Shown here: positions 27,552-35,944 of the stretch, one piece after another
Position numbering within the stretch: the stretch's first letter is position 1
How the letters are laid out: each line of letters begins with the position of its first letter
Assembly: GCA_012523135.1 (NCBI GenBank)
Contig: JAAYJD010000189.1
Span: 1 to 40,181 of the forward strand
Source of the DNA: Clostridiaceae bacterium
Lineage (GTDB): Bacteria > Bacillota > Clostridia > Saccharofermentanales > UBA5734
Reading direction: 5' to 3'
Length of the DNA stretch: 40,181 nt
Made by a program: the position numbers and the translations under genes
The notes under the pieces: generated by a model
What the model was told of the DNA's origin: nothing
The model's database searches: none
The model's input: the letters and a program-made list of their open reading frames with translations, nothing else

Positions 27552-28826
27552 TTAAGCCGGCAGGCCGAACAGCAGCCAGATCAGCACATAGGCCACCGTC
27601 ACCGCGGCCAGGGTGCTCGGGATGCCGATCCGCATGAATGCGCGGGTTTTGACCGTGTAACCGACGCTGCGCAGGATGCCGATGCCGACAATATTCGCAG
27701 AAGCGCCGATCGGGGTCAGATTGCCGCCCAAAGTCGAACCGGCCAACAGGCCGAAATAGAGCACATTCGGGTCTGCGCCCAGCGCGGCTGCGATCCCGGT
27801 AACGACCGGCAGCATCGTCGCAACATAGGGAATGTTGTCGATAAAGGCCGAGATCAGGACGGACGACCAAACGATCAGGGTGTACATGGCAAAGACCGAT
27901 CGGCCGCCGAAACGGACAAACAGCTCGGCCAGGGCGTCGATCACACCGGCCTGGCGGATGCCGGCGATCACAATAAACAACGAACCCAGCAAGAGCAGCG
28001 TGGCGCCGTCGACATTTTTGAGCAGCTGGCGCCACATTCCCGGCTGATGCGGCCGCAGTTGCGCCTCCACCATGCCGACGAGCATCATGAACAGGCAAAT
28101 CAGGCCGTTGCTGATCGCCGGTTTGCCTGGCACAAACGAAACGGCGATCAGCAGCGCGATCGTCGCGAGCAGCAACCCGGTTGGGAACAGGGTCGTGACC
28201 GGTGTCACCTGGCCGGATTTGACCGGCTGACGGTCGCGGCGGAACAGCACGAGCAAGACCAGGGCAACGGCCAGCAACCCGACCTGGCAGATCCAGAACA
28301 ATCCCGGGCGCCCCCGGTACCAGAAGAAATCGAGAAAATCCTTGTTGGCATAGCCGCCCAACATGATCGAGGTGGTGTCGCCGACCAGGGTTGCGGCGCC
28401 TTCCAGGTTCGAAGCGACTGAGATGGCGATGATACTGCTGACCGGAGACAGGTTCTGCCGCCGGGCCATCGTAATCGCAATCGGGGCCACGATCAGCACG
28501 GTGGCGACGTTGTCGATGAACGCCGAGATCAGGCCGGCGAAAACAGATAAGGCGACGATCCCCCAGCGCACATCAGGAACCCGGGCCGTGATCAGGTCAG
28601 CCAGGCGGGCCGGCATGCCAGACTGGATGAACTGGTGGACGATCACCATCGTTCCGCCTATCATCAGGATGACATTCCAGTCGATGGCCGAAAAAACCAG
28701 GTTCAGCGGCAGTACGCCGCTCGCAACAAACAGAAACGCGGCGCCCAGCGCAATCAGGGCGCGCTGGCGGGGCAGCACGATCATCAGGATATAGGTGGCT
28801 AAAAAGAGTGTCAGGGCCCATGTCAT
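27552..28826 (-). CDS. ArsB/NhaD-type (SLC13 superfamily) ion transporter
   Basis: The 424-residue protein has about eleven membrane spans and the two-fold repeat of the IT superfamily. Both halves carry the paired signatures of this group: SAFIDNVATVLIVAPIAITM with LEGAATLVGDTTSIMLGGYA, and SAFIDNIPYVATMLPVVTGI with LGGNLTPIGASANIVGIGIL. These contribute to the substrate site. Members export arsenite or exchange Na+/H+; the substrate here cannot be decided, and no ars genes are adjacent. The ATG has AGGAGA upstream. It is the first gene of a probable three-gene operon with the methyltransferase and the GGDEF protein. Confidence 0.9.
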   Translation of the reverse strand: MTWALTLFLATYILMIVLPRQRALIALGAAFLFVASGVLPLNLVFSAIDWNVILMIGGTMVIVHQFIQSGMPARLADLITARVPDVRWGIVALSVFAGLISAFIDNVATVLIVAPIAITMARRQNLSPVSSIIAISVASNLEGAATLVGDTTSIMLGGYANKDFLDFFWYRGRPGLFWICQVGLLAVALVLLVLFRRDRQPVKSGQVTPVTTLFPTGLLLATIALLIAVSFVPGKPAISNGLICLFMMLVGMVEAQLRPHQPGMWRQLLKNVDGATLLLLGSLFIVIAGIRQAGVIDALAELFVRFGGRSVFAMYTLIVWSSVLISAFIDNIPYVATMLPVVTGIAAALGADPNVLYFGLLAGSTLGGNLTPIGASANIVGIGILRSVGYTVKTRAFMRIGIPSTLAAVTVAYVLIWLLFGLPA

Positions 28827-29108: not shown

Positions 29109-30089
29109 CTATTCAAACAGATCTTCAAACAACCGCCAGACATGATCACCGTAGTTGCTGACCAATACGACCACCAGGTTCCGCGTGATGTCGCAGGCGG
29201 ACAGGAAGCTGACGCCGGGATCGCTTCCCTGGAAATACGGAATCAGCCCGTTTGGCGACTGACGCAGCCAAATGCCATAACCGTAACCGTCTTCCTCGCC
29301 GCTGTGCCGGCTGAGCATGTCTTGCGTCATGGCGGGTGAAAGCAGATGGCCTGACAGCAGCCCCTGCCAGAACCGGCGGATATCCCCGACGGTCGTGTAG
29401 GCACCGCCGGCTCCTGTGCCCTTGGCATCCACGCTGAAGATATTCGTTCGCCAGCTTTCGCACTGCTGGTCACGGATGTAGTGGTTCGCGCACCGGGCCG
29501 GCAGCCGGTCCAGTTCGAAATAGCCCGTGTCGGGCATGCCGCAGGGGATGAAGATCTGCTCGCACAAAACGCGGTCGAAAGGCTGTCCGGTGAGATGTTC
29601 CAGCAGCAAGGCCAGCATGACATAGCCGCTGTTGTTGTACTGGAAGCGGCTGCCCCGGGGGCAGCTCATCGGCTTGTCGATGAACAGGGGCAGCAGGTCG
29701 CGGTTGGTCCGGATCTTGTAATTGGGGAAATCGGCCCAGAGGGCCTCGTAGTCGTCCAGCACGGATTCGTCGAAATAATCCGGGATGCCTGATGTATGGG
29801 TTAGCAGCTGTTCCACCGTGACAGAGCCGTCGATCTGCTTCAAGTCGATATCCAGCCGGTCTCCGATCGTGTCGGTCAGGCTGAGTCTTCCCTGCTCGAT
29901 CAACTGCAGGATGGCCGCGGCGACAAAAACCTTGCCGGCCCAGGCGGTCGCAAAGCGGGTCGTCGGTGTGTTTGGGATCTGGTTGGGCCAGTCGGCGAAG
30001 CCGAACGCTTTTTCGTACACGACGGCATCGTTCTGGCAGACCAGCACACAGCCGCGAAACGAACCGCCGATTATCGTGTCGTAATCCAC
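29109..30089 (-). CDS. Serine hydrolase (class C beta-lactamase-like) with Trp at nucleophile position
   Basis: The 326-residue protein belongs to the penicillin-binding/class C beta-lactamase-like serine hydrolases by overall motifs: HTSGIPDYF, FQYNNSGYVMLALLLEHLTG with the Y-x-N motif (Tyr151, Asn153) and FQGSDPGVSF near the end. The S-x-x-K motif, however, reads W-A-G-K: residue 50 is Trp (TGG at 29942-29940), while Lys53 is kept. A single C-to-G change from TCG would account for it. Without the Ser the usual acyl-enzyme chemistry is not possible, so the protein is inactive, uses another mechanism, or the base is an error. GTG 30089 is chosen because AAGGAGG at 30101-30095 would overlap the open-frame GTG at 30095. 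It is the last gene of the ZIP/sulfatase operon, 17 bases after the preceding sulfatase. No signal peptide is seen. Confidence 0.88.
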   Translation of the reverse strand: MDYDTIIGGSFRGCVLVCQNDAVVYEKAFGFADWPNQIPNTPTTRFATAWAGKVFVAAAILQLIEQGRLSLTDTIGDRLDIDLKQIDGSVTVEQLLTHTSGIPDYFDESVLDDYEALWADFPNYKIRTNRDLLPLFIDKPMSCPRGSRFQYNNSGYVMLALLLEHLTGQPFDRVLCEQIFIPCGMPDTGYFELDRLPARCANHYIRDQQCESWRTNIFSVDAKGTGAGGAYTTVGDIRRFWQGLLSGHLLSPAMTQDMLSRHSGEEDGYGYGIWLRQSPNGLIPYFQGSDPGVSFLSACDITRNLVVVLVSNYGDHVWRLFEDLFE

Positions 30090-30106
30090 AGCCACCTCCT
30101 TGGCGG

Positions 30107-31579
30107 TCAGGTCGGCCGCCAGCCCCTGGGGTTGGCCAGGACCGCGTCGTTGAACGCGTCCAGGCGCAGGCGCAGCTCCTCCGCCTTTTGCGGATGGAGC
30201 CGGCGCACATCGTAGGACTCATCCCGGTCGCAGGTCAAGTCGAACAGGAAGGGATGGATCCGCATGCCCCGGTAGGCCGCGTTCTCGCTGCCCGCCGCCT
30301 GAACATACTTGAAATGGTCGCGGGAACGCGCGGCATAGCCTTGCCGGGCGTGGACCGGAACCAGCGAATTGACATAGAACAGCACGTCGTGCGGGCTCTG
30401 GTCGGTCTGGTCCAGCAGCAGAGGGAGCAGGCTTCGCCCGTCGATCTCGCGGTCTTGCGGCAGCTTAGCGCCGGTCAGCTCGCAAAATGTGGGCAGGAAG
30501 TCGATGTTCATCGCCATTTCCCGGATGCGCCGGCCAGATAGCGTGCCTTGCCAAAAGCAGATCGTCGGAACGACCTGGCCGCCGTCGAAGAAATTGCCTT
30601 TGCGGCCCCTGTGGCCTCCGGGCGACCCCTGGTGCCAGGGACCGTTGTCCGAGGTGAAAACGATCAGGGTTTTCTCCAGCAGATCCTTTTCTTTCAGAAC
30701 ATCCAGCAACTGGCCGATGCCGTGGTCGAACTCCTGGATGCAGTCGCCGTAGACCCCGCCCCGGGAGGTGCCGGCAAACGATTCGCCGCTGCTGAGCGGG
30801 TGGTGCGGCCAGGGCGACGCGTAATAGGCGAAAAAAGGTTCGGCCGCCTGGCCCCGGATAAAGGCAAACAGCTCCGTGTTCAGGTATTCGGTGATCCGGC
30901 GCTGGTCCAGCGGGGCCTTGACGGCGATCTCGCGGTTGCGCCAGAAATGGTACGGGTACATGTCGTTGGAATAATGCGCGCCAAAGAAGGTCTCGAAGCC
31001 CTTGTCGTTGGGCAGGTGCGGGCTGCGATCGCCCAGATGCCATTTGCCGAACATGCCGGTCCGGTAACCCCGGGCCCGCAGCAGCTCCGCGATGGTCAAT
31101 TCATCTTCCAGGATACCGCTGACTGGCATTTCGGTGCGGCGTCGCCGGTTCATCTCGTGGACACGCTGAACAAAAGCGTCTGTCACCTGACCGTCGCGTT
31201 CGTCCGCTTCGTTTTCGTAGCCCTGCGGGGTGATCTGGTCCCGGTCCGGCTCGATGGTCGGAAAGAAGACATGTTCGATCAGGCCGCGGCAAGGATAGCG
31301 GCCGGTCAGCAGGCCAAACCGGCTGGGCGTGCAGACCGGGCTGGAGGCATAGCAGTTCTCCATAACGATGCCGTCACGGGCCAGGCGGTCGAGGTGGGGG
31401 GTCCGGATCGCCTGCGAGCCGAAGCAGGACAGGTCGCCCCAGCCCAGATCGTCCATCAGGATCATGACGATGTTGGGTGCGGCGGCCCGCTCGGCGGCCG
31501 TCATGGGTTGGATGCCATCCAGGCATTGGCGGTGCTCCGCGAGGTGCTTGTTCTGCATGGCTTGCTCTATCTTGCTCAT
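30107..31579 (-). CDS. Sulfatase (formylglycine-dependent, S1 type)
   Basis: The 490-residue protein has the sulfatase signature C-T-P-S-R (Cys83 to Arg87, in SPVCTPSRFGLLTGR), where Cys is converted to formylglycine. The first metal-binding strand is MILMDDLGWGD (Asp43, Asp44), and TSDNGPWHQG supplies the later metal pair. It should release sulfate from a sulfated sugar or aryl ester. There is no signal peptide, so substrate would be imported. The gene overlaps the upstream sulfatase gene by ATGA (31579-31576), indicating coupled translation. Cys-type sulfatases in anaerobes need a radical-SAM maturase (anSME), which is not in the window. The substrate is unknown. Confidence 0.93.
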   Translation of the reverse strand: MSKIEQAMQNKHLAEHRQCLDGIQPMTAAERAAAPNIVMILMDDLGWGDLSCFGSQAIRTPHLDRLARDGIVMENCYASSPVCTPSRFGLLTGRYPCRGLIEHVFFPTIEPDRDQITPQGYENEADERDGQVTDAFVQRVHEMNRRRRTEMPVSGILEDELTIAELLRARGYRTGMFGKWHLGDRSPHLPNDKGFETFFGAHYSNDMYPYHFWRNREIAVKAPLDQRRITEYLNTELFAFIRGQAAEPFFAYYASPWPHHPLSSGESFAGTSRGGVYGDCIQEFDHGIGQLLDVLKEKDLLEKTLIVFTSDNGPWHQGSPGGHRGRKGNFFDGGQVVPTICFWQGTLSGRRIREMAMNIDFLPTFCELTGAKLPQDREIDGRSLLPLLLDQTDQSPHDVLFYVNSLVPVHARQGYAARSRDHFKYVQAAGSENAAYRGMRIHPFLFDLTCDRDESYDVRRLHPQKAEELRLRLDAFNDAVLANPRGWRPT

Positions 31580-33060
31580 AAGGGTCCTCCTCCCGGCTTT
31601 CCGCTCCCGACCCGCGCCGCGTAAAAAGGCGACTGCAGGTGCGGCCGGCCCTGCTGGCAGACCAGCTGGCCGTTTTCGACCAGCCCGGCTTGCCGCTGAT
31701 CCAGTTCGCGGATCAGCAACTGGCGCCAGGCCGCGATTTCATCCTGCTGTTCCGGCTGGGCCGCCAAATCGTGCTGTTCATGTGGATCGGCAGCCAGATC
31801 GAAAAACTGCTCGTGGTCCGCGCGGGGAAACCAGATGTATTTCCGACCCCCGTCCGTCAGGCCCTGCATCTCCTGTTCCTCGCTGTAGCAGGTGCTGTGC
31901 TCGAAGTGGACGACCCGGACCGGATCCGGCGCTTCGGCCAGCAGCGGCCGCAGGCTTTGGCCGTCCAGGCCAGGCGGCAGCGGCAAGCCCGCCAGGTCCA
32001 GCAGGGTCGGCATGATGTCGGTCAGCGTGACCGCCGTACCGATGGTGTGCCGGATGCCGGTTCGCATCGATTTGGGCAGCATCAGGACCAGGGGGATGTG
32101 CGCCGACCCTTCATAGGCATAGGTTTTGCGCCACAGGTGGTGGTCGCCGAGCATGTCGCCGTGGTCCGAGGTGAACAGGACGATCGTGCTGTCGAACAGG
32201 CCTTGGCGGCGCATCGCGTTGAACAGCTTGCCGATCTGGTGGTCGACGTGGCTGACCGAGCCGTAATAGCCGGCCCGGGCGCGTCTGGTTTCCGTCTCGC
32301 TGCGCTGTCCCCGCCAGGCGTCCGGGTCCGCCGCGTCTTCCGGCCGGTCGTTGACCCCGGCCCAGTCCCCGATAACAGGGGCCGGCAGCAGGTCCCGCTG
32401 ACGGTCGTACATGTCGAAGTAGTAAGGGGGCGGGTCGTAGGGCGAATGCGGCCGGGCAAAGGAGGTCATCAGGAAAAATGGCCGGGTGGGATCCCGCTCC
32501 TGGAGAAATTTGACCGACTGGCTGGCCGTCCAATTGCTCGGGTGTAAAAATTCCGGCAGCGCATAGGGCCGGGCTATCCAGGAGTTCCAGCCGATCCCGT
32601 GGTCGGACAGATCGTAATCGCCGGTCTTGTTGGCGTCGAACCATTGCTTGTAATCCGAGACAAATCCGGGGGTCGCAACGCGGCCCGATTCATCCAGCAC
32701 GGTGTTATGGAATCCGTTCAAGGCCCGCTGTGGGTAAAAATGCATTTTACCGACGCCCTGGGTGTGGTAACCGTGACGGGCGAACACGCCGGGCAGCGTC
32801 TCGTCAAAGCCGGTTCCCATCTCGCCCTGGCCGGGCCCCATGCCAAGCACACCGGTATGCCAGGGGCTGAGGCCGCTGATCAGGCAGGCCCGGGCCGGGA
32901 TGCAGGACGGCGACGGGGTGTAAGCATGACGGAAAACGCTGCCGTTTCGGGCCAGAAAATCGATGTTGGGCGTCTCGATCACCGGGTTGTTCGCATAACC
33001 CAGGCAATCCCAGCGCAGTTGATCCATCATGATCAGCAAAACATTCGGACGTTGCTCCAT
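31576..33060 (-). CDS. Sulfatase (formylglycine-dependent, S1 type)
   Basis: The 494-residue protein has the signature C-I-P-A-R (Cys53 to Arg57, in SPSCIPARACLISG). The first metal strand is LLIMMDQLRWD (Asp13), and FTSDHGDMLGDHHLWRK supplies the second metal pair and a substrate-side His. The CxPAR form is a valid target for formylglycine conversion. The pattern resembles iduronate-sulfatase-like or heparan/choline-sulfatase-like members, though the substrate is not decided. ATG 33060 is chosen over the open-frame start at 33081 because GAGGGTGAT lies just upstream. It follows the ZIP transporter by 24 bases and is coupled to the next sulfatase through a 4-base overlap. It has no signal peptide. 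Confidence 0.93.
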   Translation of the reverse strand: MEQRPNVLLIMMDQLRWDCLGYANNPVIETPNIDFLARNGSVFRHAYTPSPSCIPARACLISGLSPWHTGVLGMGPGQGEMGTGFDETLPGVFARHGYHTQGVGKMHFYPQRALNGFHNTVLDESGRVATPGFVSDYKQWFDANKTGDYDLSDHGIGWNSWIARPYALPEFLHPSNWTASQSVKFLQERDPTRPFFLMTSFARPHSPYDPPPYYFDMYDRQRDLLPAPVIGDWAGVNDRPEDAADPDAWRGQRSETETRRARAGYYGSVSHVDHQIGKLFNAMRRQGLFDSTIVLFTSDHGDMLGDHHLWRKTYAYEGSAHIPLVLMLPKSMRTGIRHTIGTAVTLTDIMPTLLDLAGLPLPPGLDGQSLRPLLAEAPDPVRVVHFEHSTCYSEEQEMQGLTDGGRKYIWFPRADHEQFFDLAADPHEQHDLAAQPEQQDEIAAWRQLLIRELDQRQAGLVENGQLVCQQGRPHLQSPFYAARVGSGKPGGGPL

Positions 33061-33084
33061 GGCGATCACCCTCCCAGCCACCCC

Positions 33085-33903: not shown

Positions 33904-34228
33904 GTGCAACCTCCATCACGGCATGCCGAAACGCACCTGGCGGTCAGGGGTGGTATAATGAATCAATCAGGCGGTTCGGTGACTGCATACTTGTTGTGGA
34001 TGAGATGAGGCTGGCGCTTGACGGTTCCCGATGATCGGCGCCGCGATATGCCTCCATTCGATCCGCCTGGTTCCTGGCAGCCGAACTGCCAGCAAGGAGT
34101 CAATAGAATTTTATCGCATTTGTTTTCAATCTGACAAGCGGTCTGAACCGATCTGGTCAAACTGTGTAGACAAAGGCAAACGTGACAGATGCAATAATAG
34201 TGCGATCAAGATGAATAGGGAGACGCTT
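33904..34228 (+). promoter_or_regulatory. Divergent leader of the dipeptidase gene with -10 box and hairpin
   Basis: The 325-base interval has no supported gene. It has an extended -10 (TGGTATAAT, 33951-33959) without a clear -35, a perfect 7-bp inverted repeat CTGGCAG (34074-34080) / CTGCCAG (34086-34092) with a 5-base loop, and a possible second promoter TAGACA (34167-34172) - 17 bases - TGCAAT (34190-34195). The hairpin could be an operator or leader structure; there is no T-run. Confidence 0.4.
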
Positions 34229-35944
34229 ATGAAAGCGATAAAACAAGCCCTGGCCTTTTTTGTTCTCATCATGCTTATGCTGGTGCTGGCATCCTGCAGC
34301 CAGCCTACAAAAGCCCTGCCGGCCACGTCGGCTCCGACACCTGTGGCAACCACCCGCCGCGCAATGGCCACACCGACACCGACACCGACGTTGTCCCCGA
34401 CACCGACACCGACCCTGACGCCGACACCGACACCGACCCTGACGCCGACACCGACGTTGTCCCCGACACCCAAACCAACACCGATCCCCAGCCCCCCAGT
34501 GCCCGCCGTTTCTGCGACACCGGTTCCGACCCTCCCTGCACCCGCCGCCACGCGCGCGCCCAGCACGCCGACGCCGACTGATAAACCACCGGCCACGCAA
34601 CAGGATCTTGAGGCCGCGGCCGCCCGGCTGCACCAGGAAGCCGTCGTCATCGATACGCACTGCGACACGGTCTTAAGGATTGTCGACACCGACACCTGGC
34701 TGCCCCGGCACAGCATCCGTCAGGAAACCCGTCACATGGTCGATATCCCCAAGCTGCAAACCGGAGGCATCGACGTCCAGGTCTTCGCGTCATACACCTC
34801 CGGTTACCTCCTGGCTGACGGCAAAGCGGACTATGCGCGGGCCAACAGCCGCCTGCTCGCCCTGCTTAACGGCGTCCATTGGACCGTCACCCAGAACGCC
34901 CGCTCGCTGACGCTCATCCAAAGCAACGCGGACATCGAGCAGGCGCAGCAAGCCGGGAAAATCGGCGTCATGGCCAGCATAGAGGGGGCCTACGCGTTCA
35001 GCGAGCAGACCGGCATCGAACTGCTGCGCCAGTACGACGATCTGGGGATCCGGATGCTGTCCCTGACCTGGAACTATTCCAACGCGCTGGGCGAGGGCGC
35101 GGAGGGAATCTACCTGGACGGCACCGCGTCACGCGGTGGTCTGACCGATCTAGGCCGGTCGGTTATTGCGGAAATGAACCGGCTGGGCATTGTCATCGAT
35201 GTCTCACACCTCAACGAAGCGACCTTCTGGCATGTGCTGGCGGAAACCCGCGCGCCCGTGATCGCGAGCCATTCATCGGTTTATGCGCTCTGCCCGCATG
35301 TGCGTAACCTGACCGACCGGCAGATCCAGGCCATCGCCGGGAACGGCGGGGTCGTCCAGGTCAATTATCACCGCCCGTTCCTGTCCGCCGATCCCGACAG
35401 CGCGACCCTGGCGACGGTGGTCGATCACATCGATGCCGTCGTGGCCCTGGTCGGTGTCGACCATGTCGGCCTGGGCTCCGATTTCGATGGCGCCAAGATG
35501 CCGCTCGGCCTTGAGGATGCCGCCAAGGTGCCCCGGATCACGCGCGAGCTGCTCAGCAGGGGCTATTCTGAGGCGGATATCCGCAAGATCCTGGGCGCTA
35601 ACACCCGCCGCCTGATCCAGGATGTCCAGGCCAGTGCCTCGGTCCGGCCGGTCGGCAGGGGACCGGCCCTCATGCCAGACCTGGAAGCGGGCCAGGGCCT
35701 GGCCGGCACGCAGCCGAAGCTTTCCGCCACGCTGACACTTGCGCCCGGGCAGACCCTCGACCCGGACAGCCTGGCCGTTGTTCTGGACGGCATCCGGTAC
35801 ATACCGACATATGACGAAAAAACCGGTACGCTCTCCCTGACGCCCGCTGAACCTCTGATAGAAAAATTCCACGTGGTGACCTTCGAGGCGGCAGATCGCA
35901 ATGGCGTTTCAACTCGTGAAACCCGAATCTTCTATCTGCCCTGA
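34229..35944 (+). CDS. Membrane dipeptidase (peptidase family M19), lipoprotein with Pro/Thr linker
   Basis: The 571-residue protein starts with a lipoprotein signal (LIMLMLVLASC, lipobox LASC, Cys23) and should be anchored to the outer face of the membrane. Residues 36-120 form a Pro/Thr-rich linker encoded by tandem DNA repeats. The M19 dipeptidase domain follows (about 125-470) with the binuclear zinc residues of the family: His144 and Asp146 (DTHCDT), Glu252 (SIEGAY), His327 (DVSHLNE), His348 (ASHSS) and the late Asp418 (GSDFDG). A C-terminal beta domain (500-571) has an Ig-like or PKD-like look (TLAPGQTLDPDSLAVVLDG). It probably hydrolyses dipeptides outside the cell. ATG 34229 has AGGGAGA upstream; frames open from 34031 but lack support. 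After the TGA stop the same frame continues with a coding-like stretch. Confidence 0.9.
   Translation: MKAIKQALAFFVLIMLMLVLASCSQPTKALPATSAPTPVATTRRAMATPTPTPTLSPTPTPTLTPTPTPTLTPTPTLSPTPKPTPIPSPPVPAVSATPVPTLPAPAATRAPSTPTPTDKPPATQQDLEAAAARLHQEAVVIDTHCDTVLRIVDTDTWLPRHSIRQETRHMVDIPKLQTGGIDVQVFASYTSGYLLADGKADYARANSRLLALLNGVHWTVTQNARSLTLIQSNADIEQAQQAGKIGVMASIEGAYAFSEQTGIELLRQYDDLGIRMLSLTWNYSNALGEGAEGIYLDGTASRGGLTDLGRSVIAEMNRLGIVIDVSHLNEATFWHVLAETRAPVIASHSSVYALCPHVRNLTDRQIQAIAGNGGVVQVNYHRPFLSADPDSATLATVVDHIDAVVALVGVDHVGLGSDFDGAKMPLGLEDAAKVPRITRELLSRGYSEADIRKILGANTRRLIQDVQASASVRPVGRGPALMPDLEAGQGLAGTQPKLSATLTLAPGQTLDPDSLAVVLDGIRYIPTYDEKTGTLSLTPAEPLIEKFHVVTFEAADRNGVSTRETRIFYLP
34370..34470 (+). repeat. 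Tandem repeats encoding the Pro/Thr linker
   Basis: A 24-bp unit is present twice in exact tandem (34399-34422 and 34423-34446). An 18-bp segment starting GACGTTGTCC occurs at 34387-34404 and again at 34453-34470. Both belong to a longer ACACCG-rich array translated as PTPTPTL-type repeats. Copy number is likely to vary between strains. Confidence 0.9.

Follow-up and report, generated by a model that had tools for sequence, protein, structure and literature searches.

Results and discussion

Identity of the gene and of its product

Has a serine hydrolase homologue encoded on contig JAAYJD010000189.1 of a Clostridiaceae bacterium lost its catalytic serine, and if so, is the product a pseudoenzyme, the outcome of a recent mutation or the mark of an assembly error? 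The question was raised by an earlier note on the 40,181-nucleotide stretch of DNA analysed here (the window), in which the nucleophile codon of one gene was read as Trp (Table 1). The GTG start at 30089 adopted in that reading is better supported than the GTG at 30095 given in the list of open reading frames, as a ribosome-binding-like AAGGAGG motif lies directly upstream of it.

Table 1 Features of the hydrolase locus in the window
Feature	Position	Strand	Remarks and basis
S12-type serine hydrolase homologue CDS, 326 aa	29109..30089	minus	PF00144; Trp at nucleophile position
AAGGAGG, ribosome-binding-like	30095..30101	minus	5 bases before GTG start; direct sequence reading
Codon 50, TGG (Trp) replacing catalytic Ser	29940..29942	minus	Sequence and alignment
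Codon 53, AAG, Lys of S-x-x-K, kept	29931..29933	minus	Sequence and alignment
Y151-N-N153, the Y-x-N motif, kept	29631..29639	minus	Sequence and alignment
G288-S-D290, beginning of subfamily-conserved G-x-D-P-G, kept	29220..29228	minus	Alignment
Sulfatase, PF00884	30107..31579	minus	Directly upstream of hydrolase; order same in sister
Second sulfatase, PF00884 and arylsulfatase NF010322 over cut-off	31576..33081	minus	4-base overlap with first sulfatase

A Pfam search with the gene product returned PF00144 at an E-value of 3e-50 and 171.7 bits, where the cut-off is 27. No NCBIfam model scored above its own cut-off, the values being 59.8 of 266 bits for AmpH and 29.2 of 415 for the class C beta-lactamase equivalog NF033085, which gives no support to identity as a class C beta-lactamase. 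Taken together, these matches indicate an S12-type hydrolase homologue to which the NCBIfam models assign no substrate. No signal peptide was evident when the first residues were judged by eye. No second gene nearly identical to this one was found in the source genome, which comprises 3,419,112 bases in 366 contigs and is 97.46% complete with 4.64% contamination.

S12 enzymes act via an acyl-enzyme formed on the serine of an S-x-x-K motif, which is accompanied by Y-x-N and H/K-T-G motifs. The window protein reads W-A-G-K where the family has S-x-x-K: residues 44-55 of the minus-strand frame 30089-29109 are TRFATAWAGKVF, and the translation of residues 44-61 is TRFATAWAGKVFVAAAIL. The Lys and the Y-x-N motif are retained, as the earlier note had described, and G288-S-D-P-G, a candidate counterpart of the third motif (H/K-T-G), is present as in the relatives.

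The claim that the rest of the fold is intact was borne out by an AlphaFold model (mean pLDDT 89.1), which has the R61-like/class C beta-lactamase-like fold. The closest solved structure, by sequence (2.4e-72) as well as by fold (TM 0.92), was 3tg9, a penicillin-binding protein from Bacillus halodurans. In the phmmer alignment with 3tg9, W50 stands opposite the Ser of S-G-C-K (FGIASGCK), so that the nucleophile position holds Ser in the Bacillus protein and Trp in the window protein. The Streptomyces R61 DD-peptidase (1cef, 1ikg and 3pte) has the same fold (TM 0.81-0.82) and shares the layout of S-x-x-K and Y-x-N; it is about 25% identical to the window protein, from which it differs in having the catalytic Ser. 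Residue 50 is placed by the model in the first turn of helix 49-65, and in the S12 fold S-x-x-K sits in the first turn of the corresponding helix.

Residue 50 among homologues

A set of 113 loci was assembled, two of which, L002 and L004, are copies of the window and one of which, L003, gave no match. All 110 of the others that aligned at the site carry Ser at position 50 and Lys at position 53, and in the alignment no alternative Ser takes the place of the nucleophile. Five of the 110 are distant homologues (L001 and L030-L033) and two, L005 and L034, are an apparent duplicate, taken as one contig since they share genus and motifs, so that close subfamily genes number about 104. Among matches at an E-value of 1e-40 or better, the Ser codons were TCA (34), TCT (32), TCC (23) and TCG (16), while TGG occurred twice, both times in the window.

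The Trp version of the motif was found in one of 188 genomes of the order, again the window itself, so that neither a clade of Trp proteins nor a nucleophile loss common to a clade, the mark of an established pseudoenzyme, was found among the aligned loci and these genomes. The titles and abstracts of the literature searched describe no S12 protein with Trp for its nucleophile, which is no proof of absence. A wider survey of Ser loss used strict DNA patterns in 398 genomes of the phylum, and gives no rate of such loss because its Ser-codon control matched only 1 of the 398. Patterns with a codon other than Ser matched in 2 genomes (one being the window) and in 5, the backwards-pattern control of the latter search matching in 6. 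The six loci outside the window were rejected as chance matches, as they had no homology to the protein (tblastn, none better than E 4).

The closest relative, L034, lies on JAAZFW010000267.1, from a metagenome-assembled genome of Clostridiaceae bacterium AS10tlH2TH_285 (apparently G004) of the same genus as the window. Its hydrolase, here called the sister, is of equal length and identical at 262 of 326 residues (80%), leaving 64 differences with the start codon counted. Codon 50 of the sister is TCG for Ser, in line with the proposal that a single base separates TGG from its predecessor.

Sister and window share the order sulfatase-sulfatase-hydrolase, the sulfatases being 86% and 88% identical, and the two overlapping sulfatase genes and the hydrolase gene (29109-33081) are likely to form an operon. 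C-x-P-x-R appears by eye to be kept in both sulfatases of the window, as C-T-P-S-R and C-I-P-A-R. Besides the sister (L034/L005), only L084 had a flank match to either sulfatase, many of the flanks being short. The shared order breaks directly after the hydrolase: the window continues with a CitMHS/ArsB-like transporter (27552-28826), and the sister with genes for a lipoprotein and for two permease-like proteins, all named by eye. Further along the window, at 34031-35944, a dipeptidase-like protein (named by eye) carries a long linker of Pro/Thr-rich repeats close to its start.

Elsewhere in the family, a homologue with 55% identity to the window protein (L007:1507-2472, G008) is interrupted by an in-frame TAA where Tyr271 would stand, ahead of G-x-D-P-G. 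This may be a second loss of the gene, which may then be dispensable in this lineage, or an error in that assembly as well.

Constraint on the window protein

An alignment of 100 rows contained 44 invariant columns, and 19 of the rows departed, each on its own, from one or more columns that were otherwise invariant. W50 is the only such departure in the window protein, and the sister likewise shows just Y190N. One departure of this kind is thus ordinary, and W50 stands out because it falls on the nucleophile. Between window and sister, the hydrolase and one sulfatase both gave a dN/dS (NG86) of 0.149, the other sulfatase 0.167 and the dipeptidase 0.321, the last being higher than its neighbours; the YN00 values were 0.072, 0.081 and 0.206, with one sulfatase giving no value.

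With 17 outgroup rows, the window branch received 10 changes, one of them at the start codon, and the sister branch 23, while 31 stayed unassigned. The excess on the sister branch (p 0.035 in a two-sided binomial test, 0.020 with the start codon removed) runs in the direction opposite to relaxation, and the branch lengths in the tree were 0.12 for the window and 0.17 for the sister. Odd substitutions are not entirely lacking on the window branch, as residue 143, which is Tyr in 96 of the 99 other rows and Phe in 3, is Cys in the window protein, a second radical change. These tests of constraint are blind to a pseudoenzyme only slightly older than the sample. The lack of further departures from invariant columns, the unraised dN/dS and the smaller number of changes on the window branch speak for either a very recent inactivating change or a consensus error, and against a dedicated pseudoenzyme of long standing.

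Origin of the substitution

We consider the best explanation, with confidence little better than even, to be a very recent real base change in the sampled strain that inactivated an otherwise ordinary S12-type serine hydrolase (R61 DD-peptidase/D-stereospecific peptidase-like). A single C-to-G change would have made TGG out of the nucleophile codon TCG in the sampled organism, and the Trp50 protein would still fold. Without the Ser no acyl-enzyme can form, and this protein is expected to be inactive as a hydrolase. The codon itself, its one-base distance from TCG, the family, the universal Ser of the relatives and the otherwise preserved sequence are direct observations; we infer that the change exists in the cells as well as in the assembly, that its origin is recent and that activity was lost. 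An assembly or base-calling error would produce an identical picture. It is a real, if lesser, possibility that the Trp entered the consensus through such an error, or from a minority strain, the assembly being fragmented, and that the true gene has Ser and encodes an active enzyme. The one-base distance and the little other decay in the protein suit this account, as do the number of contigs and the contamination of the assembly. The changed base is moreover the same as its neighbours, giving TGGG within CCTGGGCC, a pattern of phasing-type miscall in which copying of a neighbouring base is plausible, although this is a suggestion only. Against it, direct evidence of an error was not found, both sulfatases next to the gene are intact, and a contig of 40 kb suggests reasonable coverage.

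The earlier note had also offered a dead enzyme kept for binding, which the constraint data disfavour, as constraint appears neither relaxed nor shifted. Loss of catalytic residues with retention of binding roles is described as well known in other families (PMC10211241), and here the reading frame, the fold, all other invariant columns and the gene order with the sulfatases are preserved. On this precedent W50 might have been fixed some time ago, filling the pocket of a protein kept for binding or regulation, for example of the neighbouring sulfatases or of peptide-like ligands. We regard this as unlikely: Trp is unique against the 110 other aligned loci, the window branch is not the faster one, and Lys53, Y151 and N153 are unchanged, though they would be dispensable in a non-catalytic protein. 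A newly born S12 pseudoenzyme, in which Trp50 is fixed in the species and plugs the acylation pocket of a ligand-binding or regulatory protein behind two sulfatases, with the remaining active site intact, seems to us quite improbable. The protein could in principle serve as a pseudoenzyme, but nothing in the analysis points to this. Activity with another Ser, Thr or Cys as a migrated nucleophile is extremely improbable and was rejected. The window protein does have Ser, Thr and Cys residues of its own, such as C143, but in the sequence none is beside Lys53 and residue 143 lies a long way from the S-x-x-K helix; T44, and in many cases T48, are common to the Ser-bearing relatives.

Conclusions

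As it stands, the very recent base change that we favour concerns a single gene in a single assembly and says little more. Should the base be real, annotation would name a hydrolase, on a PF00144 match far above its cut-off, though the protein should be dead, and the gene would be a small example of family labels hiding single-residue losses. If W50 were fixed, this would be a pseudoenzyme caught at birth.
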